From a virus, in IMG/VR virus record IMGVR_UViG_3300010885_058378, positions 1 to 64,000 of that record: a DNA stretch of 64,000 nt. One strand, 5' to 3'. The position numbers and the translations under genes were made by a program. Positions within the stretch are counted from its first letter, which is position 1. Every line of letters begins with the position of its first letter. Below the pieces are notes generated by a model. It saw only the letters and a list, made by a program, of their open reading frames with translations. It was not told the DNA's origin and searched no databases. This document shows positions 46,230 to 63,618 of this stretch, in pieces.

Positions 46230-46253
46230 CTTATTGCACGGATCGCATATAAT
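46226..46253 (+). promoter_or_regulatory. Near-consensus sigma-70 promoter for dCMP deaminase and nrdJ
   Basis: TTGACT (46226-46231) and TATAAT (46248-46253) are spaced by 16 bases, the same spacing as the promoter at 21052. The predicted start point (about 46260) coincides with the ATG of the deaminase gene. Confidence 0.75.
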
Positions 46254-46259
46254 ACTGTC

Positions 46260-46727
46260 ATGCGACCATCATGGACAGATTACTTTTTAGGCTTGGCAAA
46301 AGTTGTTTCTCAACGAAGCCATGACATCCAAACTCAACATGGTTGTGTGATTACAGATAACCATAATAGGATATTAGGTGTTGGTTATAATGGATTTGCT
46401 CGTGGTCTTGATGATACTAAATTGCCAAATATTAGGCCAGACAAATATCCATGGATGATTCACGCAGAAAGAAATGCTTTGTCAAATTGTATTGTTAGGC
46501 CAGATAGTGGAATAGCATATGTTACTGGCCAATGTTGCAATGACTGCATTATGGCATTATGGCAGGAAGGTGTGACAAAAGTATTTATGATCGATGATCA
46601 TGGAACAAAATTATTTGATAGCGAAGCAAAAAATAGATTTGATACATTTATAAATATGAGCCGTATAGAAATTTTTTATCTTAAACCAGATCTGTCATGG
46701 CTCAAAGATTTGTGTGGTGTATTATGA
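46260..46727 (+). CDS. dCMP deaminase
   Basis: The 155-aa zinc enzyme converts dCMP to dUMP, feeding dTTP synthesis. HAERNAL provides the zinc His and catalytic Glu near residues 70-72; CCNDC supplies the two zinc cysteines near residue 98 (the usual Pro before the first Cys is Cys here). The N-terminus MRPSWTDYFLGLAKVVSQRS is typical, so ATG 46260 is the correct start. Since the -10 element ends only six bases earlier, the mRNA is likely leaderless. ATGA overlap with a small downstream frame. Confidence 0.88.
   Translation: MRPSWTDYFLGLAKVVSQRSHDIQTQHGCVITDNHNRILGVGYNGFARGLDDTKLPNIRPDKYPWMIHAERNALSNCIVRPDSGIAYVTGQCCNDCIMALWQEGVTKVFMIDDHGTKLFDSEAKNRFDTFINMSRIEIFYLKPDLSWLKDLCGVL
46716..46725 (+). 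promoter_or_regulatory. GGTGTATTAT motif at the end of the deaminase gene
   Basis: A match to the recurring motif that overlaps the last codons of the deaminase gene and lies 147 bases before nrdJ. Because it is coding here it could be accidental. Confidence 0.3.
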
Positions 46728-46861
46728 ATGCATTAGTATATTATATATCATGTGGAATATATTTCTACAACAGGTGGTTTAATGGTAGCTCAGAAACTAC
46801 AGATCTTTCTTTTCAAGCCACTGTCTTAATAGGCATAATTGTAATTTTAAATAGGAGATAG
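46724..46861 (+). CDS. Small membrane protein, 45 aa
   Basis: A short frame in ATGA overlap with the deaminase stop and ending one base before the nrdJ ATG. It has a hydrophobic start (LVYYISCGIYFY) and a second hydrophobic segment (ATVLIGIIVIL). The exact fit between its neighbours supports it being translated. The last codons contain AGGAGA, the nrdJ ribosome-binding site. Function unknown. Confidence 0.5.
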   Translation: MNALVYYISCGIYFYNRWFNGSSETTDLSFQATVLIGIIVILNRR

Positions 46862-46862
46862 T

Positions 46863-49052
46863 ATGTCGGCACTTCAAGAACTTCAGAATTATACATTTGT
46901 TAGTAAGTATGCTCGTTGGATAGAAGATAAGAATCGCAGAGAAACATGGAAGGAAGCTGTTGATCGCGTCAAAAATATGATGCATACCCAGTATCCTGAA
47001 GTAAAAGAAGATATTGATTGGGCATATGATATGATGTATAAGAAGAAGGTTCTAGGTTCACAAAGAGCATTACAGTTTGGCGGAGATCCTATTTTAAAAC
47101 GCCATAGCAAAATTTATAATTGCACGGCCTCTTATTGTGATAGGCTAAGATTCTTTCAAGAGTGTTTTTGGTTACTATTATGTGGCAGTGGCACAGGATT
47201 CAGCGTACAAAAACATCATGTATCAAAACTGCCAACTATAGAACATGATATTCCAGACAATAATGAGGGAATAAAATATATTATAGAAGATAGTATCGAA
47301 GGCTGGGCTGATGCTCTTGGAGTTCTTCTTAGTAGTTACTTTAGTAAGCCAATAGATGAATTTAAGATGTACAAAAATAGTTATGTTGTTTTTGATTATT
47401 CTCAAATTCGTCAGAAAGGTACATCATTAAGTTCTGGTGTTGGCAAAGCACCAGGATTTGAGCCTTTGCAAAACGGTCTAGAAAAAATAAGATTATTGCT
47501 TGATCGTTGTATCTCAAATGGACAGAAAAAACTTAGACCTATTGATGCTTATGATATAGTTATGCATAGTAGCGATGCTGTGTTAAGTGGTGGAGTTAGA
47601 AGGTCTGCTAGTCTGGCCTTATTTAGTCCAGATGACGAAGAAATGACTAAAGCAAAAACCGGTAACTGGTATATCGACAACCCACAGAGAGCAAGAAGCA
47701 ATAATTCTGCACTATTATTAAAAGATGAAACAACACTTGAACAATTCCAAAACTTAATGGAAAGTGTCAAGGAGTTTGGAGAACCAGGATTTATTTGGAG
47801 TGATTCTACAGAGATGGTATTCAATCCTTGTGTCGAAATTTCACTTTGGCCAGTAAATGAGAAAACAGGAGAGTCAGGATGGCAAGGGTGCAATCTATCT
47901 ACAATCAATTGTTCATCCATAGAAGATGAAGAAGATTTTTATGAAAGATGTAAGGCGGCTGCTATTATAGGAACTTTACAAGCCGGTTTTACAAAGTTAG
48001 AGTATCTTGGCACAAATAGCGAAGAGATCTTTGAAAGAGAAGCTTTGTTAGGAGTATCAATGACAGGTATCATGGAGAAACATGATCTGGTATTAACCGA
48101 ACAGGTTTTGAAAAAAGGATCAAAGATAGCCGTTGAAACCAACAAAGAAATGGCTAAAAAAATCAACATTAGACAGGCGGCTAGAGTAACTTGCTTAAAA
48201 CCAGAAGGAACAAGTTCTAGTATGCTTGGAACAAGCTCTGGCATCCATCCACATCACGCTAAAAGATACATAAGACACGTACAGGCCAATATTTTAGAAG
48301 CCCCATACCAACACTTCAAAAAACATAACCCGCAAGCCTGCTATAAATCAGCTTGGTCAGCAAATAATACCGATGAAATAATAAAGTTTCCTATTGAGGT
48401 TCCTGATGGGTCAAAACTTAAAAACCAATTACCAGCAGTAGACATGTTGGAAATAGTTAAGCAAACTCAAAAAAATTGGGTTCAAAATGGCAAGAATAAA
48501 GCTTTATGTACAAAAGATTATTTATGTCATAATGTTAGTAACACAGTTACTGTTAAGCCAGACGAATGGGATGATGTTACAAGATATATCTATAATAATA
48601 GAAAATATTTTGCTGGTATCAGTCTAATCCCACAAAGCGGAGACAAAGACTATCAACAAGCTCCATTCACAACAGTTTACACTAGTCGTGAAATAGTTAA
48701 AGAATATGGAGACGCTGCATTATGGTGTTCTGGATTAATTGAGTTAGGATTGAATGCTTTCAATAATAATCTATGGGCAGCATGTGATTATGTTAGTATG
48801 AATCAGGCAAAAGATAATGATAGTCAAGATAAACTTTTGTTTGTTACTAAAATGAAGAACTTTGCTGGTAAATATTTTGATGAAGACACCAAGCGTCTAA
48901 CATACTGCATGAAGGACGTATATAATTGGAAAATATATTGTGATCTCTATAATGGATTTAAGAAAGTAGATTATACACAACTTTTGGAAAATGAAGATAA
49001 TACTGTTGGTATAGAAGAAATAAGTTGTGCTGGTGGGGCCTGTTTACTATAG
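46863..49052 (+). CDS. nrdJ: Class II (adenosylcobalamin-dependent) ribonucleoside-triphosphate reductase
   Basis: The 729-aa protein matches the monomeric class II enzyme (L. leichmannii type, 739 aa), which makes dNTPs with a B12-generated thiyl radical. Visible elements: LLCGSGTGFS with the first redox Cys near residue 107, NPCVEISL with the thiyl-radical Cys near residue 322, GCNLST with the second redox Cys, the loop TCLKPEGTSSSMLG, and the C-terminal relay pair in CAGGAC. All key cysteines are present. There is no intein. It has an AGGAGA ribosome-binding site. The requirement for B12 implies that the host can make or import it. Confidence 0.9.
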   Translation: MSALQELQNYTFVSKYARWIEDKNRRETWKEAVDRVKNMMHTQYPEVKEDIDWAYDMMYKKKVLGSQRALQFGGDPILKRHSKIYNCTASYCDRLRFFQECFWLLLCGSGTGFSVQKHHVSKLPTIEHDIPDNNEGIKYIIEDSIEGWADALGVLLSSYFSKPIDEFKMYKNSYVVFDYSQIRQKGTSLSSGVGKAPGFEPLQNGLEKIRLLLDRCISNGQKKLRPIDAYDIVMHSSDAVLSGGVRRSASLALFSPDDEEMTKAKTGNWYIDNPQRARSNNSALLLKDETTLEQFQNLMESVKEFGEPGFIWSDSTEMVFNPCVEISLWPVNEKTGESGWQGCNLSTINCSSIEDEEDFYERCKAAAIIGTLQAGFTKLEYLGTNSEEIFEREALLGVSMTGIMEKHDLVLTEQVLKKGSKIAVETNKEMAKKINIRQAARVTCLKPEGTSSSMLGTSSGIHPHHAKRYIRHVQANILEAPYQHFKKHNPQACYKSAWSANNTDEIIKFPIEVPDGSKLKNQLPAVDMLEIVKQTQKNWVQNGKNKALCTKDYLCHNVSNTVTVKPDEWDDVTRYIYNNRKYFAGISLIPQSGDKDYQQAPFTTVYTSREIVKEYGDAALWCSGLIELGLNAFNNNLWAACDYVSMNQAKDNDSQDKLLFVTKMKNFAGKYFDEDTKRLTYCMKDVYNWKIYCDLYNGFKKVDYTQLLENEDNTVGIEEISCAGGACLL

Positions 49053-49078
49053 AACAATTTATAACTTATACTTATAAA

Positions 49079-49090
49079 GGTGTATTATAA
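49079..49090 (+). promoter_or_regulatory. GGTGTATTATAA promoter-like motif before phoH
   Basis: A near-perfect copy of the recurring motif, 53 bases before the phoH start. Just downstream AGTATTTTAATACT (49094-49107) is a 14-base palindrome that could form a small hairpin or operator. Confidence 0.55.
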
Positions 49091-49131
49091 AGTAGTATTT
49101 TAATACTCCTTATATAAGAAAAGGGCACACA

Positions 49132-49863
49132 TTGAGAAAAACTAATAAAAACTCAAAGAAAAAAGCTAGGGTTATTGATGCAACAAATAGTTTGGAGCCC
49201 AAAGGAGCCGCTTATAGGAATCGATTAAAACCAAGAACAGAAAACCAAAAAGAATACATAAGGACTATTGCAGAAAATACTATCACATTTTGTCAGGGTT
49301 TAGCAGGTAGTGGTAAAACACATATTGCTATAGGAATGGCTCTTGAATATCTTTTAGATGAAAAAGTAAAAAAAATTATTATTACAAGACCAATATTAGA
49401 GGCTGGAGAAAAAATGGGATACCTCCCAGGATCAGCAGAAGAAAAACTTCATCCTTATCTATTGCCGATATTAGACGAAATTGTACATTTTATAAGCTCA
49501 GCACATTATGCTTCACTGAGATTGAATAATAAAGTTGAAGTAGTTCCGCTTGGACTAATGAGAGGTCGTAATTTTCATAATGCTTTTATTGTTGCTGATG
49601 AATGTCAAAATGCTTCATATGAACAATTAAAAATGTTAATAACACGAACAGGACAATCTAGTAAAATGGTTTTAACTGGTGACGTTGCTCAGTCTGATTT
49701 AAGCAGACATTTACAAGGTGGTTTTAGCGATATGATATCGGCCCTTAATGGAGTTGAAGGTATAGGCTATTCTAAATTAGAAGCCTCAGATATTGTAAGA
49801 AATCCAATTATCTCTAAAATCTTATATAGACTTGATGACTATGAGCAGCAAAGCCGAAAATAG
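49132..49863 (+). CDS. phoH: PhoH-like ATPase
   Basis: The 243-aa P-loop protein has Walker A GLAGSGKTH (residues 56-64), ITRPILEAGEKMGYLPG, and Walker B AFIVADECQN near residue 152, followed by LTGDVAQSDL. This matches PhoH, very common in phages; its exact role is unclear, with RNA-related activities suggested. The start is TTG 49132, preceded by AAGAAAAGGG, because no ATG precedes the Walker A motif. Overlaps the HNH gene by 29 bases. Confidence 0.88.
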   Translation: MRKTNKNSKKKARVIDATNSLEPKGAAYRNRLKPRTENQKEYIRTIAENTITFCQGLAGSGKTHIAIGMALEYLLDEKVKKIIITRPILEAGEKMGYLPGSAEEKLHPYLLPILDEIVHFISSAHYASLRLNNKVEVVPLGLMRGRNFHNAFIVADECQNASYEQLKMLITRTGQSSKMVLTGDVAQSDLSRHLQGGFSDMISALNGVEGIGYSKLEASDIVRNPIISKILYRLDDYEQQSRK

Positions 49864-50431
49864 TAAATGCTTATTATTAAACGCAGACTATGCCCCTCTG
49901 AGAATAATATCTTGGCAGAGGGCTATAGTTTGGTCTATGAGATACGAACATAATAAAAATTACGGTATTGAGATATTATCATATTATAAAGATAAGCATA
50001 TTCAAGGATCTGCCGGAAAACAGTATCCAGTTCCAGCAGTAGCTAAAACCATTAGATTTTTTAATATGTATGATAGAAAGATTAGTTTTTCAAGACATAA
50101 TTTATTTATCAGAGATAATCATACGTGTCAATATTGTGGAATTCAATTATGTTCTTCACAATTAACATATGATCATATAGTTCCAAAATGTAGATTTAAT
50201 GAGAACAAAAGATTATCAACAAATTGGAAGAATATAGTGACTGCTTGTAGACCTTGTAATCACAAGAAGGGTAATAGGACACCAAAAGAAGCAGGAATGA
50301 AACTAATAAATTCACCAATAGAGCCCAATTACTCATTAGAGTACTTGCCTTGGTTTCAGGAAGTCTCTACTATAAGGGGCGGACCTTCGTATGAATTGTG
50401 GAAACCTTTTATAAATATACAATATGCATGA
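49835..50431 (+). CDS. HNH endonuclease family protein
   Basis: The protein of about 198 aa has the arrangement CQYCG (zinc), LTYDHIVPKCR (catalytic His), NWKNIVTACRPCNHKKGNRTP (Asn, zinc pair and second His) and GMKLINSP, common to a large HNH family found in bacteria and phages. The N-terminal 60 residues (LLLNADYAPLRIISWQRAI) are part of the same family. Three candidate starts lie within 9 bases inside phoH (TTG 49832, ATG 49835, ATG 49841). It may be a free-standing mobile endonuclease or have a phage-internal role. Confidence 0.8.
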   Translation: MTMSSKAENSKCLLLNADYAPLRIISWQRAIVWSMRYEHNKNYGIEILSYYKDKHIQGSAGKQYPVPAVAKTIRFFNMYDRKISFSRHNLFIRDNHTCQYCGIQLCSSQLTYDHIVPKCRFNENKRLSTNWKNIVTACRPCNHKKGNRTPKEAGMKLINSPIEPNYSLEYLPWFQEVSTIRGGPSYELWKPFINIQYA

Positions 50432-50831
50432 TTTTATTTTTAATTCCAAACCATCAGACATATCAGAGATGTTTTATTGTTTGAAGGGCAAAGAAGACTT
50501 TATTGATACCGATGGAAATCCAAGAGTATCAGATAAAGACTCTGACATCATAGCTGCTAAATGCGTACAGAATAAAAAATCAAAAAGTTTTCAAGCAGCA
50601 TCAAATAATTATAGTTACTATATTAGAACAACCCCAAATGCTGCACTATTTAATCCAATAGAGAAACTATCTCCAATTAAAGATAAACGACAATTTGATT
50701 TTATAGATTCTACCTGTAAGGACAAGTGGATGTTTGTTGAGGTGGGAAAAACAACATTTGATAAGTATATAAAATTTCTAGTCACAAAAAACATTTCTTG
50801 GCTAAAGGAAGCCAATAGAGACTTGAAGTAA
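50424..50831 (+). CDS. Conserved phage protein, paralogue of the gene at 51520
   Basis: The 135-aa protein starts MHDFIFNSKPSDI and ends FVTKNISWLKEANRD-like (ITKNISWL core). The same frame pattern (MDDFIF; CxxGxExxxDxDGxPR; LFNP; TKNISWL) is present in the protein at 51520-51897, so the two are diverged copies of one family. No catalytic motif is seen. Overlaps the HNH gene by 8 bases. Confidence 0.6.
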   Translation: MHDFIFNSKPSDISEMFYCLKGKEDFIDTDGNPRVSDKDSDIIAAKCVQNKKSKSFQAASNNYSYYIRTTPNAALFNPIEKLSPIKDKRQFDFIDSTCKDKWMFVEVGKTTFDKYIKFLVTKNISWLKEANRDLK

Positions 50832-50833
50832 TT

Positions 50834-51178
50834 ATGCCAACTTATTCATACAGTTGTGAAAAATGTGGTGCTGAATTTGAGCTATTCTTTTATATTAAAG
50901 ATTATCAAAGCAGCCCCAAATGTTCTGGTTGTGGATCTAAACAGACATACAGATGCTATATTAAGGATGTAGCAACACAGAACACATCTGTTAAAAAGTC
51001 AGATACAGAACTAAAAACTATTGGAGATTTAGCCAATAGGAATAGAGATAAAATGAGTGAAGACGAAAAGATCTCATTACATAATAAACATAATTCCTAT
51101 AAAGAAGAACAGCCAGTTAACGAACTGCCAAAAGGAATGAAAAGACTAAAGAAACAACCAAAGATTAAGTGGACATAA
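50834..51178 (+). CDS. FmdB-family zinc-ribbon protein
   Basis: The 114-aa protein begins MPTYSYSCEKCGAEFELFF and continues CSGCGSKQ, the FmdB regulatory-protein signature with two CxxC pairs. The rest is charged and Lys-rich. FmdB-like proteins are putative regulators; here it lies between two paralogous genes in the replication half. Role unknown. Confidence 0.75.
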   Translation: MPTYSYSCEKCGAEFELFFYIKDYQSSPKCSGCGSKQTYRCYIKDVATQNTSVKKSDTELKTIGDLANRNRDKMSEDEKISLHNKHNSYKEEQPVNELPKGMKRLKKQPKIKWT

Positions 51179-51179
51179 T

Positions 51180-51527
51180 ATGAAAGAAATAACACCAGAA
51201 GAAAAAGATAGTATTATTAATGCTCTTGACAGTATTAGAAAGCAGATGAGTGGTCAAGATTTATCAGACTATATTTCTAAAGACAATACTAAGCTCATAG
51301 AGTGTAAGCACGAAATAGTGATTAGTGTTGTTGCTAGTATTTTTGAAGAAGACGATACTGGTAATCTCATTGGAGCTAAAGAAATATCTAAAAAGAACTA
51401 TCATATTCCAGTTCCGTCAAATAAAAAATATGAAGACTATCTACATGGATTTTTTAATTTTTTAGAAAATTGTATGTCATCATCATTAGAAAAAGTAGAA
51501 GAACAAGAGGAAACAAAAAATGGATGA
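51180..51527 (+). CDS. Hypothetical protein, 115 aa
   Basis: A soluble acidic protein with a predicted helical N-terminus (EEKDSIINALDSIRKQM), a beta segment (HEIVISVVASIF) and a coiled Glu-rich end (LEKVEEQEETKNG). Not recognised. It starts 1 base after fmdB-like and overlaps the next paralogue by 8 bases. Confidence 0.5.
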   Translation: MKEITPEEKDSIINALDSIRKQMSGQDLSDYISKDNTKLIECKHEIVISVVASIFEEDDTGNLIGAKEISKKNYHIPVPSNKKYEDYLHGFFNFLENCMSSSLEKVEEQEETKNG

Positions 51528-51897
51528 TTTTATTTTTAGTCCAAAACAAAAAACAGATTCGACAGACACCAACTATTATTGTATGGCCGGATCAGAAAAC
51601 TATACTGATGGAGATGGATTTCCAAGATCAGAAAAAGATGGAAAGAATGTTCTTGCTAAAAGAATATTTAAAACAAATTCTCAGCCGCAATATTTTATTA
51701 AGATATCCAATAGCAATAAATTATTCAACCCCCTTGGAAGCGGATTAGATGAAAAGTCATACAGTATTGTTGATAATGTCTGTAGACCATCAGACAAGTT
51801 CAGATCTGTTAATGAAAAAGTCTTTAATTTATATCTTAATTTTTTATCCACAAAGAACATATCATGGTTAACTAGAGCAGAAAGAGAGATCATATAA
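51520..51897 (+). CDS. Conserved phage protein, paralogue of the gene at 50424
   Basis: The 125-aa protein shares the start (MDDFIFSPK), a GxENYTDGDGFPRSEKD segment, LFNPLGS and TKNISWLTRAERE with the protein at 50424-50831. The tandem but interrupted arrangement suggests duplication followed by insertion of two genes. It shares one base with the next start. Function unknown. Confidence 0.6.
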   Translation: MDDFIFSPKQKTDSTDTNYYCMAGSENYTDGDGFPRSEKDGKNVLAKRIFKTNSQPQYFIKISNSNKLFNPLGSGLDEKSYSIVDNVCRPSDKFRSVNEKVFNLYLNFLSTKNISWLTRAEREII

Positions 51898-52220
51898 TGC
51901 CTAAACTGAATAAAACACAAAAATATGCAATACAATGGTTACACTCAACAGGATTAAGTTCTGACGCTATAGCAAAAGAACTGAATGTAACCACAGAACA
52001 GGTTGTTTCATTAGTGCCAAAAGTAGAAATAGTAGCAAGTCCAACAACAGCGACTATTCCTTCGGCAAAAGATTTGATGATAACCCACACATCTGGTAAA
52101 AAGATTAACTCTATTGCCATAATGACAAAAGAGGCATCACAGATTGGAGACGAATCTAAAAAGTCTGCTCCACCACAGATTAATGAAGATAAAAAAGGAA
52201 TCTTTAGACCAAAGAAATAA
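51897..52220 (+). CDS. Small protein with N-terminal helix-turn-helix, 107 aa
   Basis: Residues 4-37 (KTQKYAIQWLHSTG, then SSDAIAKELNVTTEQVVSL) form a convincing helix-turn-helix. A conserved stretch near residue 60 (LMITHTSGKKINSIAIMTKE) and an ending GIFRPKK recur in related phage proteins. Could be a regulator or an adaptor of replication. Function not known. Confidence 0.6.
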   Translation: MPKLNKTQKYAIQWLHSTGLSSDAIAKELNVTTEQVVSLVPKVEIVASPTTATIPSAKDLMITHTSGKKINSIAIMTKEASQIGDESKKSAPPQINEDKKGIFRPKK

Positions 52221-52221
52221 T

Positions 52222-52644
52222 ATGTATCCATCAAGATACTCAAATGGGAAAACTGTCTCTGCTGCTCAATATATAACAGAGTTGATATGTGAGCATAAGG
52301 CGACAATGGAAAAATTGGATCTTCATTATAGATTTTGGACCAATAAAGAATGGTCTAAGTACTATAGAGATCAGATAGCAACAGCAAATAAGTTATTAAA
52401 AAAATATAGTGCCAAAGCTATTATCAGAGCCTTAAATGATAAAAAAGCAGAGAGAATCTATTCTTTGCGAGCACCTCATCTGTTGGCTATAATAGACCAT
52501 CATGAAACTCTGCTAGGATCAGAAAACACAGAGCTAACAGAGAATATTGACAGATCAGAGAAAAAAACTTTTAGACATAAAACAAATACAAAACAAGGCA
52601 TACTTTCTAAGTTAAAGGAATTAGATGATGGCAACAACTCTTAA
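52222..52644 (+). CDS. Conserved phage protein, 140 aa
   Basis: Start taken at ATG 52222 (MYPSRYSNGK), not at an earlier in-frame ATG inside the previous gene, because a conserved pattern begins there: NGKTVSAAQYITELICE, LHYRFWTNKEWSKYYR and KAIIRALNDKKAERIYSLRAPHL. This family accompanies UvsX/RecA genes in many large phages; possible mediator of recombination, but unproven. It overlaps the RecA-like gene by 20 bases. Confidence 0.6.
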   Translation: MYPSRYSNGKTVSAAQYITELICEHKATMEKLDLHYRFWTNKEWSKYYRDQIATANKLLKKYSAKAIIRALNDKKAERIYSLRAPHLLAIIDHHETLLGSENTELTENIDRSEKKTFRHKTNTKQGILSKLKELDDGNNS

Positions 52645-54679
52645 AGAAGATGTAATTAAAAACTTTGGTGATGAGATTATATTGTCTGGCAATGCTATGG
52701 TAGACAAGAAAGTATTAACCATTCCTGTTAGTCCATCATTAGATATTGCTTTAAATGGTGGCATACCAGAAGGTAGTTTTGTTGTTTTAACGGGACAACC
52801 CAAATGTGGTAAGCTACAACGATTGACCGATTTAATTTATACTCCAAATGGTCGAGTAACTATTGGATCAATAAAATCAGAAGATATAATATGTAATCCT
52901 AATGGATCTACATCTAAAGTAATTGGTATTTATCCTCAAGGTAAAAAAGATATTTATCAGGTTAGTTTTAATGATGGTTCCAAAACCTATTGTGGACTAG
53001 AACATAATTGGTTGGTAGCAAAAAATAATCGAACAAATGACTACAAAGTTTTAACTTTACAAGAAATTATATCGGAAGGATTAAGACTAAATGATCGTTG
53101 GAAATGGAAAATTCCACTAACAAAACCAGTTTATTTTAAGCAAACAAAAAAGCTTTCAATTGATCCGTATATTCTTGGATGTTTGATCGGTGACGGAGGA
53201 TTAACACAAAAAACTCCAAAAATCACCACATCAGATCAGTTTATTCTAAGAAAATTCAAAATCTTTGTTAAAAAACGTGGCTTATCTATCAAGCAAGTGT
53301 CTCAATATGATTATAATATAAGTGGAAAAATAGATTCAAACGTTTTAATTAGAAATACTATTACAAAAGATCTTAAAGAATTAAAACTTTATGGTTGCTC
53401 TTCGCATGATAAGTTTATTCCACAACACTACAGATACTCCTCTATATCAAATAGATGGAAACTTATACGCGGCCTAATGGACACAGACGGATCAAATGAC
53501 AATGGACTTAGAGCAGAATATTCCACTGTTTCTGAAACATTGGCAAAAGATGTTCAAGAAGTTTTAGAAAGCTTAGGATACACCTGTCAAATAAAACACA
53601 GATTTACAGGATATGAAGGTAAAGAGGGTAAGCAATTTCCATCTTATAGATTATATATTCATGGTAACGATATTGATAAACTCTTTAGTTTACCAAGAAA
53701 GAAAAGTGGACATATTAGAAGTAAGCCAGACCTTCATAGAACAATAGTTGATGTAGAAAAGGTTTCTCAAGAAGAAGCTATTTGTATTGAAGTAGATAGT
53801 CCTGATGGATTATATCTAACAAATAATTTCATTGTTACTCATAATACGACAACATCATTAGCATTTTCAGCAACAGCACAAAAAAAAGAATATGCTCATG
53901 GCTCATTTAAAGATGGTCGCCAAGTGTACTACCTTAACATTGAGGGTAGATTGAAGAAAAGAGATTTAGAAGGAATACCGGGACTAGACCTGAGCAGATT
54001 CCATATAATAGGAAGTCAACAAGGTAAGATTTTACATGGTGAAGAATATTTGCAAATTGGTGAAAGAATTATTAATGAAATACCTGGATGTGTTCTGATT
54101 ATAGACTCATACTCTGCTCTGTGTACCGAAGCAGAAATCACCAGTGATATGGATAAAATGCAAAGAGCAGACGGCGCTAAACTACTAGCAAAATTTTGTC
54201 GTAAAGTTGCTAATGTTATTCCTGTTAATCGTAATATTGTTATAGGTATTACTCACTTAATGGGTAATCCAACAGGTTATGGAGCAGAGTTTAAAGAAAA
54301 AAGCGGTCAAGCTATTGCTTATCAGACCGACATTAAGCTCAGGGCGAAGACATTTAAACCGTGGATCGTTGGAACCGACAATACTCAAATAGGGCAGGAG
54401 ATCGAATGGCAAGTGGTCTGCTCGGCACTTGGGCCTCCTGGGGCTGTGACAACCAGCTATGTTAGATATGGCCAAGGAATTGATAAGTATACAGAATTGA
54501 TCAATTTAGCATCTGATGTTGGTATTATTAATAAGGGCGGCGCTTGGTATACAATAACCGCACTTGATGATAAGCCAAAATTTCAAGGTACAGAAAAAGT
54601 TAGAAATTTTCTATTAGAAAATAAAGAAGCATACGATCTAGTTGAAAAGTCTGTTAAAGAGGTTTTAGGAATTAAATGA
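52625..54679 (+). CDS. RecA/UvsX-like recombinase precursor with an intein in Walker A
   Basis: After removal of the intein the extein is 340 residues: an N-terminal part to TGQPKCGK, then TTTSLAFSAT, giving Walker A GxxxxGKT; Walker B-like VLIIDSYSAL; the NVIPVNRNIVIGITHLMGN loop; and a C-terminal part. It would form filaments on single-stranded DNA and catalyse strand exchange in phage recombination and repair. AAAGGA gives the ribosome-binding site; ATG 52625 and ATG 52628 are both possible. The protein is inactive until the intein leaves, because the P-loop is split. Confidence 0.85.
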   Translation: MMATTLKEDVIKNFGDEIILSGNAMVDKKVLTIPVSPSLDIALNGGIPEGSFVVLTGQPKCGKLQRLTDLIYTPNGRVTIGSIKSEDIICNPNGSTSKVIGIYPQGKKDIYQVSFNDGSKTYCGLEHNWLVAKNNRTNDYKVLTLQEIISEGLRLNDRWKWKIPLTKPVYFKQTKKLSIDPYILGCLIGDGGLTQKTPKITTSDQFILRKFKIFVKKRGLSIKQVSQYDYNISGKIDSNVLIRNTITKDLKELKLYGCSSHDKFIPQHYRYSSISNRWKLIRGLMDTDGSNDNGLRAEYSTVSETLAKDVQEVLESLGYTCQIKHRFTGYEGKEGKQFPSYRLYIHGNDIDKLFSLPRKKSGHIRSKPDLHRTIVDVEKVSQEEAICIEVDSPDGLYLTNNFIVTHNTTTSLAFSATAQKKEYAHGSFKDGRQVYYLNIEGRLKKRDLEGIPGLDLSRFHIIGSQQGKILHGEEYLQIGERIINEIPGCVLIIDSYSALCTEAEITSDMDKMQRADGAKLLAKFCRKVANVIPVNRNIVIGITHLMGNPTGYGAEFKEKSGQAIAYQTDIKLRAKTFKPWIVGTDNTQIGQEIEWQVVCSALGPPGAVTTSYVRYGQGIDKYTELINLASDVGIINKGGAWYTITALDDKPKFQGTEKVRNFLLENKEAYDLVEKSVKEVLGIK
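52814..53845 (+). mobile_element. Intein with LAGLIDADG endonuclease, class 3 features
   Basis: The 344-residue intein runs from Leu64 to the Asn of VTHN, directly before Thr of the C-extein. It starts with Leu, so it lacks the usual Cys/Ser nucleophile; instead it shows the class 3 set: Trp in EHNWLV (block B), Cys in ICIEVD (block F) and Thr in IVTHN (block G). The central part holds two LAGLIDADG-type motifs, LGCLIGDGGL near intein residue 120 and IRGLMDTDGS near residue 221, so it is likely an active homing element. Confidence 0.8.
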
Positions 54680-55095
54680 ATATTATTGATTTAGATGGAA
54701 ATCAGATTAACTGGAGCCTAACTGGTCATATTTCTAAAGGAAGAATTCATGATAAGTCTTCTTTCCATTTAGCAGCCAGGAAATTACTAATAGATAGTTT
54801 TCCAACACTGCAAATACTAGAAGAAGTTCCTATTCCATTAAGAAGATCAGAAACACTATATCTTGATTTTTATTTACCGCTAATAAAAAGAGTAATAGAG
54901 GTTCATGGAGAACAACACTATAAGTTTATTCCATTCTATCATAGTTCTAAAATGAATTTTTTAAAAGCACAAAAAAGAGATAATGAAAAAAAAGAATGGT
55001 GTGAAAAAAATGGTATAACTCATACCGTATTGCCATATAATGAGCCAATAGAAACATGGAGAAAGATACTGTCTTATGAGCACACGAACAGCTAA
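54676..55095 (+). CDS. PD-(D/E)XK nuclease-like protein
   Basis: The 139-aa protein has LYLDFYLPLIKRVIEVHGEQHYKF near residue 74, seen as key elements D-x-Y-L-P, then E-V-H-G-E-Q-H, the PD-(D/E)XK nuclease core related to Vsr-type proteins, and RDNEKKEWCEKNG further on. Similar proteins follow uvsX/recA in large phages. It probably cuts DNA in recombination or repair, or derives from a mobile endonuclease. It overlaps the recA-like stop by 4 bases. Confidence 0.65.
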   Translation: MNIIDLDGNQINWSLTGHISKGRIHDKSSFHLAARKLLIDSFPTLQILEEVPIPLRRSETLYLDFYLPLIKRVIEVHGEQHYKFIPFYHSSKMNFLKAQKRDNEKKEWCEKNGITHTVLPYNEPIETWRKILSYEHTNS

Positions 55096-55573
55096 AGAAG
55101 ATTTACAGCACTGGGATAATATTCTAGACGAATACGAATCCTCAATAGCTCTGCCCAAATACTCTGCTCAATACGGAGTATCAGAGAGTGAGATTAATCA
55201 GTATTTAACAATGACAAGAGATGAACTTGAAAAGATATCGCCAGAAGATTGTGCTCAAATATCTTATAGATTAGCCCAATTCTCGTTCCATGTTCAAAGA
55301 ACAATAAATAGAGAAATTGCCAGATGTAATTGGTCAGAAGAATCTATAAAAGAAACAATAGCTGATGAGATCAATAATTATAAAGGATATGGTTTTATAG
55401 AAAAATCTTTACAAGCGATTAAACATAATGACAAAGCCTCAGCATTAAATAGTATAAAGAAGTATGCAAAACAAAGAATTGACAGACTATCATATATTGC
55501 CAATAGTATAAAAAATCTATCTGATATTATGATGGCTATACAAAGAACAAAGGTGCAACATGGACCCAAATGA
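55076..55573 (+). CDS. Hypothetical helical protein, 165 aa
   Basis: An acidic helical protein beginning in the 3' end of the nuclease gene. A conserved-looking region LDEYESSIALPKYSAQYGVS and LAQFSFHVQRTINREIARCNW occurs in related phage proteins next to helicase genes. No enzymatic motif. A role at the replication fork is suggested only by position. Confidence 0.5.
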   Translation: MSTRTAKEDLQHWDNILDEYESSIALPKYSAQYGVSESEINQYLTMTRDELEKISPEDCAQISYRLAQFSFHVQRTINREIARCNWSEESIKETIADEINNYKGYGFIEKSLQAIKHNDKASALNSIKKYAKQRIDRLSYIANSIKNLSDIMMAIQRTKVQHGPK

Positions 55574-56003
55574 GATTTTAAAAAACCCAGAACAAATTAA
55601 GGCACTAATCTCTCTTTTACAGGGATTGGTCGATCAGGTAACTCCAGAACAAGAGCCAGAAGAAGAAACCAAAAATAAGAGGGTGGCACCGTCCAAACCG
55701 GGGTCTACTATAAAAACGAAAGGTGGTCAAAAAGTAGGAAACAACAAATCGATCAAATCCAAAAAAACACAGCCAACAAATATTAATGCATTTGAAAAAA
55801 TGGCTGAGTTTAGAATGCACAAGGATGATTGTGCTATAGATAAAAAACTATGCTCAAATGAGCCTGTAGCAAGAATGAGGGAATTTGAATTTGTCGATGT
55901 TGTTTGTCGTGTTTGCGGCAAAAAGGAATCTATTGCTCCATCACTACTATTTGATGCTCCTTCTCGATACAAGTGTAATAATTGCTCAACCCAATCTGGC
56001 TAA
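55560..56003 (+). CDS. Zinc-ribbon protein, 147 aa
   Basis: An N-terminal acidic helix, a basic low-complexity linker (KTKGGQKVGNNKSIKSKK) and a C-terminal domain with CRVCGKKES and CNNCSTQSG, a four-Cys zinc ribbon. It lies just before dnaB with a 3-base gap and overlaps the previous gene by 14 bases. It may bind DNA or connect replication proteins; no function is known. Confidence 0.6.
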   Translation: MDPNEILKNPEQIKALISLLQGLVDQVTPEQEPEEETKNKRVAPSKPGSTIKTKGGQKVGNNKSIKSKKTQPTNINAFEKMAEFRMHKDDCAIDKKLCSNEPVARMREFEFVDVVCRVCGKKESIAPSLLFDAPSRYKCNNCSTQSG

Positions 56004-56006
56004 AAT

Positions 56007-57476
56007 ATGATTTTGTGTGATCCGTCGGCAGAGAGAGCCATTCTTAGTGGTATCTTAAAGTATGGTGAGGATGCCTATTTGGATATCGCTGATATCTTAC
56101 AGGAGTCTTCATTCACCATAGATAGTAATCAGATAATATTCAAATGTCTGAAAAATATTTGTGAAAATGAACCAAAGACTAAAATTGATTTAGCATCTGT
56201 ATACTCGTCAGCACAAGAACTGGGTTTATCTGAAGTTCTATCAAAAAAGGACGAGGCTCAGCATTTAAAGGCTATATTTGATTTTCCAGTTAATTTGGAA
56301 AATATTAGAAAATTCGCCTCTAAAATTAAGAAGCTAGAAATAGCAAGACTTCTTCACAAGGAAATGGATCAGGTCCAGGAAAGACTTCTTGATGTAACAG
56401 GAAGCGAATCTATATCTAATATTATAGGAATAGCAGAAGAATCCATATTTAGCTTTTCCTCTTCGTTATCTAACGAGAGTGATGCTGCTCCAGCCTTTAT
56501 TGCTGGAGATATTGATAATTATATAGAATTTCTACAAACAAATAAGGTGGATCAAATTGGAATATCCACTGGATTTCCTGTTTATGATCAGGCTATTGGC
56601 GGAGGACTAAGAAAAGGAACGGTTAATGTTATTGCTGCCAGACCAAAGGTTGGTAAAACATTGTTATCCGATAATATTGGTTATTACATAGCAAGTAAAT
56701 TAAAGATTCCAGTTTTGAATATGGATACGGAAATGACAAGAGAAGACCATATTCATAGAATTCTTGCCATGTCCTCTGAAATTGAGATCAATAAGATTGA
56801 GACTGGTAAATTTTCTGATACTCCAAGCACTTTCTCTAAGATACAAGAGGCTATCAAAGAGTTAAAAGAAAGTCGCTTATATCATAAGAGTATTGCTGGT
56901 AAGCCATTTGAAGAACAACTATCTATAATGCGAAGATGGTTAGTCAAAGAAGTTGGACTTAATGACGATGGAACAGCAAAAGATTGCGTTATAATATATG
57001 ACTATCTAAAATTAATGGATAGTGCCGGAATAAACCAAGATATGAAAGAATATCAGGTTCTTGGTTTTATGATGACGGCACTTCATAACTTTGCTATACA
57101 GTATAAAGTTCCCATACTATCATTCATTCAGTTGAATAGAGATGGAATCACAAAAGAAAGTACCGACACGGCCAGCGGATCTGACCGTATTATATGGTTG
57201 TGTAGCAACTTTACTATTTTCAAAAGAAAGAGTGACGAAGAAATCGCTGAAGATGGACAAGACGCTGGTAATAGAAAATTAGTACCCTTAATTAGTCGCC
57301 ACGGAGGAGGACTAGATGACAACGATTATATTAATTGTCATATGAAGGGGTGGTGTGCTAAGATAACAGAGGGTAAAACCAGACTAGAATTAATGAGCGG
57401 GTCGAACAAACAAAAGGACGGTTTCATAGTCGATGAAAACAATAATGAAGAAAAAAACGAAATACCATTCGTATGA
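56007..57476 (+). CDS. dnaB: Replicative DNA helicase (DnaB family)
   Basis: The 489-aa protein has an N-terminal DnaB domain (SAERAILSGILKYGED start), a linker, and a RecA-type motor with Walker A AARPKVGKT (residues 211-219), VLNMDTEMTREDH (motif 1a) and Walker B CVIIYDYLKL near residue 328; FIQLNRD and SDRIIWLC are later helicase motifs. It is the 5'-3' fork helicase. No intein is present here, although this family is a frequent intein host. It overlaps the primase gene by 44 bases, so the two are made together. Confidence 0.9.
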   Translation: MILCDPSAERAILSGILKYGEDAYLDIADILQESSFTIDSNQIIFKCLKNICENEPKTKIDLASVYSSAQELGLSEVLSKKDEAQHLKAIFDFPVNLENIRKFASKIKKLEIARLLHKEMDQVQERLLDVTGSESISNIIGIAEESIFSFSSSLSNESDAAPAFIAGDIDNYIEFLQTNKVDQIGISTGFPVYDQAIGGGLRKGTVNVIAARPKVGKTLLSDNIGYYIASKLKIPVLNMDTEMTREDHIHRILAMSSEIEINKIETGKFSDTPSTFSKIQEAIKELKESRLYHKSIAGKPFEEQLSIMRRWLVKEVGLNDDGTAKDCVIIYDYLKLMDSAGINQDMKEYQVLGFMMTALHNFAIQYKVPILSFIQLNRDGITKESTDTASGSDRIIWLCSNFTIFKRKSDEEIAEDGQDAGNRKLVPLISRHGGGLDDNDYINCHMKGWCAKITEGKTRLELMSGSNKQKDGFIVDENNNEEKNEIPFV

Positions 57477-58602
57477 TCAATATCAGTTAAAGCATTTATC
57501 TGATAAAGTATGCGACGATATTGAAAATCTATTATTGTCTTTGGGAATAGATTCCTATAAGATGCTAGATAAGATGGTCACCATGAGTTGTCCTATTCAT
57601 GGTGGAGATAATGACTCAGCATTCAATCTGTATCATCAAGGAGATACATATCGAGGCAACTGGAAATGTCGAACACACCAATGCGAAAATGTTTTTAAAT
57701 CATCAATAATAGGATTTATTAGAGGGTGCTTATCTCATCAAGAAGGATGGTCTAAGTCTGGTGATGATATGGTCTCTTTTAATGATGCCTTACAGTTTGC
57801 TATAAGCTTTAGTAAGCACGATCCGTCTGACCATAAACAAACAAGAAAAGCTAAAGAAAAAAATAACTTTGTTAATGCAGTTAAGAATATAACTCCAGAT
57901 AGTCAAAATAAACCACAACTAGTTCCTAGGTCTTTGGTCACTAAGGCACTAAACATACCATCAAAGTATTTTATAGATAGGGGTTTCTCCAAAAACATTC
58001 TTATTAAATATGATGTTGGAGACTGTATAGGACAAGGAAAAGAAATGAGCAGCAGGGCTGTGGTTCCTGTTTATGATAATGATATGATAGGAATGGCAGG
58101 ATGCACTGGTCGTAGCATATTTGACAAATGCAACGAATGCTCATGCTTTCATGATTCTCAACAATCATGCCCCGAAGATAAAGAAAAATGGCTAAGTTCT
58201 AAATGGAAACATAGTAAAAATTTTAAGACACAGGAATATCTGTATAATTACTGGTTTGCTAAAGACATTATTTTGAAGAATAAAACTGTTGTCATTGTTG
58301 AAAGTCCTGGAAATGTGTGGAGACTAGAAGAATCTGGTATACATAATTCTGTAGCTATTTTTGGATCTTCTCTGAGCCATAAACAAAAAATGCTTTTAGA
58401 CATATCCGGAGCAATGAATATAGTTACTATAATGGATAATGATGTTGCTGGCCAAGAAGCGTCAAAACAAATAGAATTAAAATGCGGAAGAACATACAAC
58501 ATCAAGCATATCAAATTATCCTCTAATGATGTTGCAGAAATGTCTCCCGATCAGATTAAGCAAGAAATTTTACCGCAAATACAGGACTATCAATTATGCT
58601 AA
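57433..58602 (+). CDS. DNA primase with Toprim domain
   Basis: The 389-aa protein begins with a zinc-binding part: CPIHGG near residue 52 and CRTHQCE near residue 78. A Toprim domain follows: VVIVESPGNVWRL near residue 287 (catalytic Glu) and IMDNDVAGQEA near residue 334 (DxD-like acid pair). It makes RNA primers for lagging-strand synthesis and is coupled to DnaB. ATG 57445 is a possible alternative start. It overlaps the next gene by ATGCTAA. Confidence 0.85.
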   Translation: MKTIMKKKTKYHSYDQYQLKHLSDKVCDDIENLLLSLGIDSYKMLDKMVTMSCPIHGGDNDSAFNLYHQGDTYRGNWKCRTHQCENVFKSSIIGFIRGCLSHQEGWSKSGDDMVSFNDALQFAISFSKHDPSDHKQTRKAKEKNNFVNAVKNITPDSQNKPQLVPRSLVTKALNIPSKYFIDRGFSKNILIKYDVGDCIGQGKEMSSRAVVPVYDNDMIGMAGCTGRSIFDKCNECSCFHDSQQSCPEDKEKWLSSKWKHSKNFKTQEYLYNYWFAKDIILKNKTVVIVESPGNVWRLEESGIHNSVAIFGSSLSHKQKMLLDISGAMNIVTIMDNDVAGQEASKQIELKCGRTYNIKHIKLSSNDVAEMSPDQIKQEILPQIQDYQLC

Positions 58603-59327
58603 TATTAGGAATCTCTGGAAGGAAGCAGTCCGGAAAAAGCACAATAGGCAATTTTATACTATCTCTATATCTTGCTAAGCTAGGATATTGTGAAAAAATT
58701 TATATGGATGAAGATGGTCAATTATTGATTTCTGATATTCTGGGAGACACTAGGTATGAAGGTATTTTTGATATTAGAAAATTAGTGGATACATACAATG
58801 ATCCAAGATTTATACAAGCTATTAATAAGCTTAATTCAAAGGTAAAAATATACAATTTTGCTGATATTTTAAAAACAGACATCTGTATTAATATGCTAGG
58901 ATTAACATATGATCAGTGCTACGGAACAGATGATAATAAAAACGAAATGACAAACATAGTATGGAACGATAAGAAACTATCTGCTAGAGATGTTATGCAA
59001 GTTGTAGGCACTGATATTTTTAGAAAATTAGATACTAATGTGTGGGTTAGATCCACTATTAATAAGATTATTAGAGATAAACCAGACCTTGCTGTTATTA
59101 CTGATTGTCGATTTCCTAACGAAGTAGATTCTATTAAGCAAAGTGGTGGAAAGGTTATAAGATTAACTAGAAATCCATTTCAATCAGATCATCTAAGTGA
59201 AACAGTATTAGATAAAGACAACTATGATTGGTCTAATTTTGATTATGTAGTAGAAAATTCTGATGTTACTCTTCTTGATCAATTTACTCAGATTAAAAAA
59301 CTATTAGAGGAGATATTACCATTATAA
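58596..59327 (+). CDS. Deoxynucleoside monophosphate kinase
   Basis: The 243-aa protein has GISGRKQSGKST (P-loop, residues 5-16), SARDVMQVVGTDIFR, WVRSTINKI and VITDCRFPNEVDSI; these motifs match phage dNMP kinases (T4 gene 1 type), which phosphorylate dNMPs to dNDPs. It complements the ribonucleotide reductase and dCMP deaminase. The GAGGAG near its 3' end probably serves the following nuclease gene. Confidence 0.85.
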   Translation: MLILGISGRKQSGKSTIGNFILSLYLAKLGYCEKIYMDEDGQLLISDILGDTRYEGIFDIRKLVDTYNDPRFIQAINKLNSKVKIYNFADILKTDICINMLGLTYDQCYGTDDNKNEMTNIVWNDKKLSARDVMQVVGTDIFRKLDTNVWVRSTINKIIRDKPDLAVITDCRFPNEVDSIKQSGGKVIRLTRNPFQSDHLSETVLDKDNYDWSNFDYVVENSDVTLLDQFTQIKKLLEEILPL

Positions 59328-60361
59328 TAACATACTTTAGAAGTTCATCTTATAACACACACTCTCTTTGCGAACAGCAATATTTTGGTGAGTACGTACT
59401 AGGGTGGAGAGGATTGTCTGGCCAAAAAGCAGATAAAGGAACTATTACTCATAAAGTTCTTGAAATTTTAGCGGTTATGAAAAAAGCCGAGCAAGATGGA
59501 CAAACTACTATTGATGACGATCTTATCGGATTAGTTGATATTAATAATTATGATTTAAATAATTTAATAGAGAAAGTATATACCTATTATACTAATAATG
59601 CTCAGCATCATAAGTGGTCGGCTAAAGATCATAGAGACTGTAAAGACTGGGTTTATAAGGCTATAGAATTTAATGGCGGAATGTTTGATCCTAGAAAAAG
59701 AAATATTCTTTGTCCAGAACAACACTTTGATTTTGAGATTAAAAAACCCTGGGCTAAATACTCTTATGATATTGGCGGAGAAAAACTTGAGGGCAATCTA
59801 GCACTAAAGGGCACAATTGACTTAATAACATTGGTTAATGATTCTACAATAGAAGTAATAGACTGGAAAACTGGAAAAAGATTAGATTGGGCTACTGGAG
59901 AAGAAAAAACCCAAGAGAAGCTAGAAAAAGATCCACAGTTAAAGATCTATCACTATGCAATAAAACATCTTTATCCTCATATTAAGAATATAATATTTTC
60001 AATATATTTTATTAATGATGGTGGACCATTCTCCATTTGTTTTCATGATTCTGATCTAGCATCAACAGAAGATATGCTAAGACAAAAATTTGAAGCAATT
60101 AAAAGCACTAAAAAGCCAAGACTACATAAAAGCTGGATGTGCAGTAAGTTGTGTCATTTTGGCAAAACAACATTTGATGGAACTCATATTCAGCCAATAG
60201 AGGAATACAGAGATGGACAAGTATGCAAATCTGGTCAAACCATGACAAAGTGCGAACAGATAAAACACGACCTTGATCTTTATGGAATCGACACTACAAT
60301 TGGATTGTACAAGAACAAGAATCACTCATTTGGAAGTTACAAAGCACCCGGATCAATATGA
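59327..60361 (+). CDS. Cas4/AddB-type PD-(D/E)XK nuclease with non-canonical start
   Basis: The conserved N-terminus, TYFRSSSYNTHSLCEQQYF, begins before the first ordinary start codon (TTG 59414): the frame is open from ATT 59321, ATA 59324 and ATA 59327, behind GAGGAG (59307-59312). I set the start at ATA 59327, which would mimic the TAATG overlaps used elsewhere. Motifs: GTIDLI and VIDWKTGKR (catalytic D and E-x-K), and four cysteines near the end (CSKLC, QVC, TKC). The Cys in THSLCEQQ supports the longer start because Cas4-type nucleases need one N-terminal Cys for their Fe-S cluster. A role in recombination or end resection is likely. Confidence 0.75.
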   Translation: MTYFRSSSYNTHSLCEQQYFGEYVLGWRGLSGQKADKGTITHKVLEILAVMKKAEQDGQTTIDDDLIGLVDINNYDLNNLIEKVYTYYTNNAQHHKWSAKDHRDCKDWVYKAIEFNGGMFDPRKRNILCPEQHFDFEIKKPWAKYSYDIGGEKLEGNLALKGTIDLITLVNDSTIEVIDWKTGKRLDWATGEEKTQEKLEKDPQLKIYHYAIKHLYPHIKNIIFSIYFINDGGPFSICFHDSDLASTEDMLRQKFEAIKSTKKPRLHKSWMCSKLCHFGKTTFDGTHIQPIEEYRDGQVCKSGQTMTKCEQIKHDLDLYGIDTTIGLYKNKNHSFGSYKAPGSI

Positions 60362-61773
60362 CAAAAACATATTCAGTTCTTCATGCTCATTCTCACTATA
60401 GTCTTTTAGATGGAATTAGTAAACCTAGTCAAATAGCGGAAAGATGCGTTAATGCCGGAATTAAAACCTGTGCAATAACTGATCATGGAACTATTTCTGG
60501 ATGTGTGCAGTTCTATCAGGCAATGAAAGCCAAAAAGATTAAACCAATATTAGGTTGTGAACTTTATATATCTAAAAATGATTCTCTTATTAAAGAGAAA
60601 GAGAATAAAGATTTAAGTCATTTCCTCGTTCTTGCTAAAAATCTAGCAGGATGGAGAACTCTTGTAAAGATCATATCTGAAACTAACAGAATAGATAATT
60701 TCTATCATAAGCCTAGGATTAGTTTTGATAGATTAGCACCCATTCTAGACGGAAATATTATAGGGTTTTGTGGTCATTTAGGATCAAGCATATCAGATTT
60801 GGTTGAGGAAAATCCTGATAACTATACTGATAAGGCAATATCTTTTATAGACCATATGAAAGAAATATTTGGCAAAGATAATTTCTTTTTAGAAGCCCAA
60901 CTCATGGATCAGGAACTAAATCCTAAACAAAAAGAAATGACAGATATAATGAGACAATTATCTGTTAAAACTAAAACTAAAATAATAGCTACTCCAGATG
61001 CTCATTATTGTGAAAGAAAAGACGCTATTGATCAAAGGATTTTATTATGTAATAATCTTAAGACAACTTTAATAGATATAAATAAGAAACTCTTGGCTAA
61101 TGAGGAAGTGCCAATGGGTTGTTTTTTTAAATCGGACAACTATCATATTCCAGATCCAGAAGAAATGACGGAGTGGCATACTAGCGAAGAAATTGAAAAT
61201 ACTCTATATGTTGATTCAATGTGCGAAGAGTATTCTATTCTTAGTAAGCCAGCCCTTCCTGCCTTTGAATGTCCAAACAACTCTAATCCAGAAGAATATC
61301 TGAGACAATTATGTAGAGATGGTTGGCGAGAGAAGATAATGAATGATATTCCAGAGTCTGAGCATACCAAATATGCAGACAGAGTAAAATTAGAATTAGA
61401 TATTTTACAAAAAGCTGGATTATCTAGTTACTTTCTTATAGTACAAGATATTGTAAACTATGTTAAAAAGAGTGGATGGCTTCCAGGACCAGGAAGAGGA
61501 TGTTTTGTTCCTGATACGAACGTTAAAATGCACGACGGAACAACAAAAAAGATCTATCAAATCAATATAGGAGACATTATAATAGATGCCTATGGAAATC
61601 CCCAGGAAGTTTATGATACTTTGCAGTATGATATTAATGAAGATATTATTGAATTAATATTTGAAAATGAAAAAACTATTAGATGCACTAAAGATCATAA
61701 ATTTTTAACAAAAAATAGAGGGTGGGTAGAGGCCCAATATCTCTCAGATATAGATGATATTGTAGAAGTTTAA
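60358..61773 (+). CDS. dnaE: DNA polymerase III alpha, N-terminal piece with N-intein
   Basis: The 471-aa protein has 381 residues of N-extein and 90 residues of N-intein. The extein carries the PHP domain (HAHSHYSLLDG, ITDHGTISG) and the first part of the palm, up to LPGPGRG. The intein then begins with Cys1 at 61501 and includes the block B motif CTKDHKFL before the stop at 61771-61773. The active polymerase must be rebuilt by protein trans-splicing with the product of the gene at 62604. It shares 4 bases with the nuclease gene. Confidence 0.88.
   Translation: MTKTYSVLHAHSHYSLLDGISKPSQIAERCVNAGIKTCAITDHGTISGCVQFYQAMKAKKIKPILGCELYISKNDSLIKEKENKDLSHFLVLAKNLAGWRTLVKIISETNRIDNFYHKPRISFDRLAPILDGNIIGFCGHLGSSISDLVEENPDNYTDKAISFIDHMKEIFGKDNFFLEAQLMDQELNPKQKEMTDIMRQLSVKTKTKIIATPDAHYCERKDAIDQRILLCNNLKTTLIDINKKLLANEEVPMGCFFKSDNYHIPDPEEMTEWHTSEEIENTLYVDSMCEEYSILSKPALPAFECPNNSNPEEYLRQLCRDGWREKIMNDIPESEHTKYADRVKLELDILQKAGLSSYFLIVQDIVNYVKKSGWLPGPGRGCFVPDTNVKMHDGTTKKIYQINIGDIIIDAYGNPQEVYDTLQYDINEDIIELIFENEKTIRCTKDHKFLTKNRGWVEAQYLSDIDDIVEV
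61501..61770 (+). mobile_element. Split intein, N-terminal half (90 aa)
   Basis: Starts with Cys1 (CFVPDTNVKM) after the GPGRG of the polymerase; contains TxxH in RCTKDHKFL and ends at a stop. A class 1 (Cys-type) split intein by these residues. Confidence 0.88.
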
Positions 61774-61796
61774 AAAGAACCCCTTCCTAGACTTTT

Positions 61797-61812
61797 GGTG
61801 TATGTTTATATA
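61797..61812 (+). promoter_or_regulatory. GGTGTATG promoter-like motif in front of the inserted endonuclease
   Basis: GGTGTATGTTTATATA lies 26 bases before ATG 61823, in the short gap after the split-intein stop. It suggests that the endonuclease and the C-terminal polymerase piece have their own transcript. Confidence 0.45.
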
Positions 61813-61822
61813 GAGAAATATT

Positions 61823-62632: not shown

Positions 62633-62711
62633 GAATTACACAGGAAAAGTCCATGATATCTCTGTTAAAAATTCTGCATCCTATAATGTAGAGGGGTTGG
62701 GAGTACATAAT
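62604..62711 (+). mobile_element. Split intein, C-terminal half (36 aa)
   Basis: Carries block F (GKVHDISVKNSASYNVE) and block G ending GLGVHN, followed by Ser as +1 residue at the polymerase junction SAAG. The 36-residue length is typical for the C-half of natural split inteins. Confidence 0.88.
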
Positions 62712-63437: not shown

Positions 63438-63438
63438 A

Positions 63439-63618
63439 ATGCAAAAACAATTTCATGAACTAGCGATTGGTGATAGATTCACAGTTAATGGCGTTGAATA
63501 TATTAAAACTGAAGAAGTTAGAGTTAGCTGTTGCAGAAGTATCAATTGTTATGCTTCTTCTGACGCTAATCAAAAAGGACATTTTCCCGGAAATACAGAA
63601 GTTACAATAAATGGCTAA
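63439..63618 (+). CDS. Small conserved phage-type protein, 59 aa
   Basis: A short frame starting one base after the polymerase piece. HELAIGDRFTVNGVEYIKT resembles the start of the protein at 21310-21561, with IG(D/E)xF and a following (N)G-x-x-Y. AAAGGAGAA gives a strong ribosome-binding site. It overlaps the exonuclease start by 8 bases. Function unknown. Confidence 0.6.
   Translation: MQKQFHELAIGDRFTVNGVEYIKTEEVRVSCCRSINCYASSDANQKGHFPGNTEVTING

Follow-up and report, generated by a model that had tools for sequence, protein, structure and literature searches.

A viral RecA with a probable mobile class 3 intein in its ATP-binding loop

The recA gene is interrupted within its Walker A motif

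The DNA analysed here (the window, 64,000 nucleotides) belongs to a metagenome-derived record, 131,481 bases long, of an uncultivated bacterial virus. Positions 52625-54679 (+) form one open frame of 684 codons made up of a RecA N-extein, an intein and a RecA C-extein (Table 1): precursor residues 1-63 and 408-684 are RecA, and residues 64-407 are the insert. The initial annotation had read the host gene as RecA-like, and this is borne out by the extein parts, which match PF00154 (RecA; E 3.6e-13), RecA_C (E 6.9e-10) and PHROG 97 'UvsX-like recombinase' (E 1.9e-32). Pfam matches to the insert were LAGLIDADG_3 (E 7.7e-10) and Hom_end (E 1e-6). The insertion point lies between the Walker A lysine and threonine (GQPKCGK/TTTSLAF, the slash marking the junction), and the motif joined after removal of the intein is GQPKCGKT, a complete Walker A as encoded by empty alleles.

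Table 1. Features of the interrupted recA gene (window coordinates)
Feature	Position	Strand	Basis or remark
RecA/UvsX-like recombinase gene with in-frame intein, 684-aa precursor	52625..54679	+	PF00154, RecA_C, PHROG 97
N-extein, ends ...VLTGQPKCGK (Walker A through lysine)	52625..52813	+	Empty alleles end on same codon
Intein, 344 aa, LQRLTDL...NNFIVTHN	52814..53845	+	Exact 1032-bp insertion relative to empty sister L105
Residue 1 = Leu, no class 1 nucleophile	52814..52816	+	Relatives: Leu, Met, Asp, Glu or Ala
Block B His64 (B:10) and Trp66 (B:12, W of WCT); B:7 = Gly61	53003..53011	+	Direct reading, alignments, solved inteins
LAGLIDADG homing endonuclease domain, intein residues about 105-303	53126..53722	+	Pfam, model, PI-SceI fold match; limits approximate
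LAGLIDADG motif 1, YILGCLIGDG, Asp127	53168..53197	+	Asp127, Gly128 invariant
LAGLIDADG motif 2, LIRGLMDTDG, Asp225	53462..53491	+	Asp225, Gly226 invariant
Block F Cys324 (F:4, C of WCT), proposed first nucleophile	53783..53785	+	Invariant in all aligned rows
Block F position 13 = Gly332 instead of usual His	53807..53809	+	Common to the close intein relatives
Block G Thr342 (G:5, T of WCT), His343, Asn344, Thr+1 (first C-extein residue = Walker A Thr)	53837..53848	+	Reading and alignments
C-extein TTTSLAFSAT..., remainder of RecA	53846..54676 (stop to 54679)	+	Profile matches, comparison with empty alleles

Empty alleles fix the boundaries of the insertion

In 78 of the 80 viral recA homologues closest to the window gene, the two junction codons are directly adjacent, without a single additional base; of the other two, one carries the intein (L037) and one is truncated. 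The nearest homologue (L001), whose junction was compared with that of the window by BLAST and by ungapped comparison, is without the insert, and its extein parts are 98% and 99% identical to those of the window. The sister genome region that carries this allele (L105) and the window are collinear, with 90.6% identity over 46248-52812 and 93.2% over 53843-62158; it is the RecA C-extein of this sister that accounts for the 99% figure, and the alignment jumps exactly the insert, 1032 bp or 344 codons. With the insert taken out, an intact RecA remains. Because empty alleles run through the same two codons, the boundaries are fixed independently of the intein itself, and the proposed interruption of Walker A at 52814-53845 proved exact. 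The occurrence of near-identical viruses without the insert indicates that the element is real, exactly placed and probably still spreading. A co-conversion tract was considered, as the only differences in L002 within about 30 bp of the junction are four synonymous ones, all of them no more than 10 bp away from it; L001 does not show this pattern, and we therefore make no claim of co-conversion.

The intein carries the class 3 splicing signature

Class 3 is one of the rarer splicing chemistries. When the intein was set against the published defining features of this class (PMC5050341, PMC6195587, PMC7891396), we found a residue 1 that is neither Cys nor Ser, Trp at B:12, Cys at F:4, Thr at G:5, His at B:10, a terminal Asn and Thr at +1. 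The blocks read GLEHNW (B), AICIEVD (F) and VTHN (G), with the Trp66 codon at 53009-53011 and the Thr342 codon at 53837-53839 by direct reading. Class 1 inteins have Cys, Ser or Thr at residue 1, where this intein has Leu1. The initial annotation had named the Leu start and the Trp, Cys and Thr residues, and had proposed aligning blocks B, F and G with class 3 inteins. In that alignment, with 12 other inteins, the class 3 positions are occupied by W66, C324 and T342, in agreement with the direct reading. Across 76 aligned inteins (that of the window and 75 others) Cys324 and Thr342 are invariant and Trp66 nearly so. The top four PDB matches of a family profile were the class 3 DnaB inteins 6rix, 6riy and 6bs8 and the WCT-engineered gp41-1 intein 6riz; the W, C and T of the window intein are in register with those of 6bs8, 6rix and 6riy, and Cys324 lies over the catalytic Cys of 6bs8.

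Two residues, Gly at B:7 and Gly332, deviate from the usual patterns. Position 13 of block F is usually His, a residue linked to Asn cyclisation, and with Gly332 in its place splicing efficiency could be low. The AceL NrdHF class 3 intein lacks the block F His and yet splices, and Gly at B:7 occurs in functional class 3 inteins (PMC7891396).

The endonuclease domain appears intact

An AlphaFold model of the intein based on 65 aligned inteins (mean pLDDT 92.4, pTM 0.91) comprises a Hint splicing domain and a two-motif LAGLIDADG domain, with the catalytic residues Asp127 and Asp225 both kept. The whole model matched the precursor of PI-SceI, another LAGLIDADG-bearing intein (1jva; Z 28, 3.2 A, 329 residues), and the splicing part matched class 3 6bs8 (Z 18.9, 1.6 A, 123 residues). 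Fold matches were also obtained to I-DmoI and, for the Hint fold, to the mycobacterial RecA intein structure 2imz (Z 15.5). These data agree with the two LAGLIDADG motifs noted at the outset. A model of the whole precursor (pLDDT 50) was too poor to place the intein within RecA.

The intein family is scattered among viral recA alleles

When viral contigs were scanned with intein queries and RecA queries, 41 intein-bearing and 183 empty recA loci were obtained; these counts carry no information on prevalence because the intein was the query in some scans. Collapsing identical sequences left 116 empty alleles and, besides the window, 16 carriers. The intein family occurs in at least 17 distinct viral recA alleles, scattered among alleles that are mostly empty. 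On a tree of RecA C-exteins the 17 carriers imply 11 changes of state, at least 8 of them forced by well-supported branches, and in a quick tree of 79 class 3 inteins the RecA-hosted ones form one clade (SH-aLRT 94). A single intein clade whose carriers are dispersed over the RecA tree indicates that, most likely, one lineage entered recA and later spread between alleles. No bacterial or archaeal carrier in recA was found; the only two relatives there were weak ones, in helicase-like genes of Bacteroidaceae contigs.

Individual pairs tell the same story. Two inteins (L121 and L125) are 85% identical while their RecA proteins are 42% identical, from which it follows that the intein moves between recA genes. 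For L085 and L086 intein dN is 0.05-0.07 against a RecA dN of 0.18; conversely, the RecA proteins of L082 and L083 are almost alike (dN 0.03), and their inteins differ considerably (dN 0.18-0.32). Since most pairs are close to saturation at synonymous sites, transfer can be dated from the closest pairs only. At the level of sequence comparison, these data demonstrate transfer of the intein between recA alleles. Homing, which the first reading had suggested from the LAGLIDADG motifs, is thereby supported by the empty-site alleles as well as by the scatter of carriers. Both parts of the intein are constrained, with a median pN/pS of 0.29 for the splicing part and 0.38 for the endonuclease part. 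A recent jump from the neighbouring dnaB was rejected as a source: the dnaB intein of a related virus (L069), 40% identical, has a different insertion point and Cys as its first residue, and in the intein tree it does not group as sister to the RecA inteins.

Related class 3 inteins occupy Lys/Thr and Lys/Ser junctions in other genes

In a sample of 60 relatives, drawn with RecA inteins as query and hence not unbiased, 58 have a K/T or K/S junction, and most of these sites are P-loops. Two class 3 inteins (L152 and L190) sit at K/T in a motif of family A DNA polymerase, a site with no P-loop; the assignment was made by eye from the motif and its surroundings. Another (L179) sits at K/T in an apparent terminase nuclease domain, with a seeming second intein-like segment downstream. 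Two further cases lie outside the 60-junction sample. One, on the same record as L037 (L104, 1483-2424), directly follows the lysine of a DWK motif in a PD-(D/E)XK nuclease gene; the window homologue of that gene (59414-60358) matches PDDEXK_1 and is intein-free. The other is the class 3-like dnaB intein of the related virus mentioned above (L103/L069, 1498-2523), which has the full WCT triplet, Cys1 and Lys for the penultimate His; it is inserted at GARPK/TGKT and not after the second Walker A lysine. A tentative idea, which we think somewhat doubtful, is that this class 3 lineage may need little beyond a Lys codon followed by a Thr or Ser codon in a conserved catalytic site and may hop between unrelated enzymes, viral recA being one stop that was then widely colonised.

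Neighbouring genes include a split DnaE and nuclease-like genes

A further Hint match at 61525-61776 was considered as a second class 3 intein of the window virus and rejected, as it corresponds to the N-half of a putative split class 1 intein in dnaE. DNA polymerase III alpha (60358-63437) is encoded there in two parts, N-terminal (60358-61773) and C-terminal (62550-63437), apparently divided by a naturally split class 1 intein (CFVPDTN... and ...VEGLGVHN/SAAGC). A PD-(D/E)XK endonuclease-like gene (61823-62632) lies between the halves, a fractured-gene arrangement. The rest of DnaE is in a further separate ORF (window 63437-64000, continuing into L108 315-1940; start at about 64315 in the virus record), so that DnaE is apparently encoded in three parts. 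At the second DnaE break a relative (L106, 1279-2874) has an HNH-like gene (1313-1996), which the window is without.

Closer to recA, a small nuclease-like gene (54676-55095) overlaps the recA stop codon and matches the homing endonuclease PHROG 9084 (E 5.5e-16); since the intein-free sister also has it (L105 12518-12937), we do not tie it to the intein. An HNH endonuclease gene upstream of recA (49832-50431; HNH_5 E 4.5e-10, PHROG 16726) is likewise present in the sister.

A model for splicing and homing

Taken as a whole, the evidence makes it very probable that a mobile class 3 intein occupies the ATP-binding loop of this viral RecA, splices via Cys324 and homes into empty P-loops. By analogy with characterised class 3 inteins, whose splicing steps have been described (PMC4031507, PMC6195587, PMC7664689), we infer the following course. 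The recA gene would be translated as a single 684-residue precursor with a broken Walker A motif, in which normal ATP binding is not expected and which is presumably inactive. The intein would form a Hint domain, and Cys324, helped by His64 and Thr342, would attack the bond between Lys-1 and Leu1. The N-extein would be taken onto Cys324 as a branched thioester and handed to Thr+1, Asn344 would cyclise, and an O-N shift would yield an uninterrupted GQPKCGKTTT P-loop, the predicted spliced junction peptide being GQPKCGKTTTSLAF. During co-infection the LAGLIDADG domain may cut intein-free recA at the P-loop codons, and repair of the cut gene would copy the intein in.

One alternative is that the intein acts as a regulated switch, the precursor staying unspliced until a signal such as single-stranded DNA or the redox state of Cys324 frees active RecA. 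Signals of this kind do act on two other P-loop inteins, those in P. horikoshii RadA and M. smegmatis DnaB (PMC5790916, PMC6195587). The present sequence, however, gives no hint of such control, most of the nearest relatives are without the intein, and the distribution and intact endonuclease suit a selfish element; we consider a switch unlikely. A class 2-like route, in which Thr+1 would attack the N-terminal splice bond directly and Cys324 would only assist, shares with class 2 a non-nucleophilic residue 1. However, class 2 consists of KlbA orthologues, in which G:6 is Ser and F:4 is Asp (PMC4031507); the window intein has His343 and Cys324 at these positions. The full WCT triplet is present and the best matches are to class 3, which leaves this route very improbable. 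Equally slight are the chances that splicing has been lost, with cleavage only and a virus left with broken RecA fragments. Gly332 in place of the block F His would fit such a loss, but the frame is intact in the window and in all carriers, the other catalytic residues are all kept, the splicing part is under purifying selection (the pN/pS of 0.29 given above) and RecA 3' of the intein is intact, whereas a splicing-dead intein in a Walker A motif would be expected to decay or disappear. Although the window comes from a metagenome-derived record, an assembly chimera or chance open frame is refuted by at least 10 further contigs with the same arrangement at the same codon, by flanks collinear with the sister genome and by the conservation of the catalytic residues, and deserves practically no credence.

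Comparison with known inteins

The RecA/UvsX P-loop had initially been described as a less usual site for a class 3 intein. As regards the position this does not hold, Lys/Thr in the P-loop being the classic site for such inteins (PMC5050341); as regards RecA as a class 3 host it does, although this host is recurrent in uncultivated viruses. By 2020, nr held 1701 class 3 inteins, of which 82.5% had LAGLIDADG motifs (PMC7891396), and mycobacterial RecA is a known intein host (PMC5050341). The full-text literature searched, which did not extend to subscription papers or recent nr entries, yielded no class 3 intein in RecA/UvsX. Among 50,697 annotated phage records there were no RecA-hosted relatives when the full protein, the C-extein and a downstream-junction query were used (no record covering 80% of the last), an absence at that sensitivity only. 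As neither this literature nor these annotated phage genomes contained one, RecA appears to be a new host gene for class 3 inteins.

The closest characterised systems are the DnaB class 3 inteins of M. smegmatis and M. chimaera (6bs8, 6rix, 6riy; the Bethlehem DnaB intein being the prototype), with which the window intein shares the WCT triplet, the missing residue 1 nucleophile, the HN end, the Hint fold and insertion after the Walker A lysine. The mycobacterial DnaB inteins are mini-inteins without an endonuclease in a replicative helicase, with Ser+1 and Asp at B:7, whereas the window intein has a RecA host, a LAGLIDADG domain, Thr+1 and Gly at B:7. Class 3 inteins of phage terminase, PhoH, UvrD-like, SNF2-like, DnaB and AAA proteins belong to the same family (30-42% identical to the window intein); they too have a LAGLIDADG domain and sit mostly at GK/T or GK/S, but they fall outside the RecA intein clade. 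The mycobacterial RecA inteins (M. tuberculosis, M. leprae) share the RecA host and the Hint fold; they are class 1 inteins with Cys1, inserted elsewhere in RecA than at the Walker A lysine. The archaeal RadA P-loop inteins of Pyrococcus horikoshii and Thermococcus sibiricus are also of class 1, and differ further in being endonuclease-free mini-inteins of archaeal hosts. Both resemble the window intein in their RecA superfamily host and P-loop insertion (PMC5790916).

The chemistry and the type of site (class 3 at GK/T) are therefore already known, and this is no new kind of system. What the window contributes is a recombinase among the host genes of class 3 inteins, with one lineage moving between recA genes about 42% identical, and matched pairs of near-identical carrier and empty viruses that make homing range and any splicing control of viral RecA directly testable.
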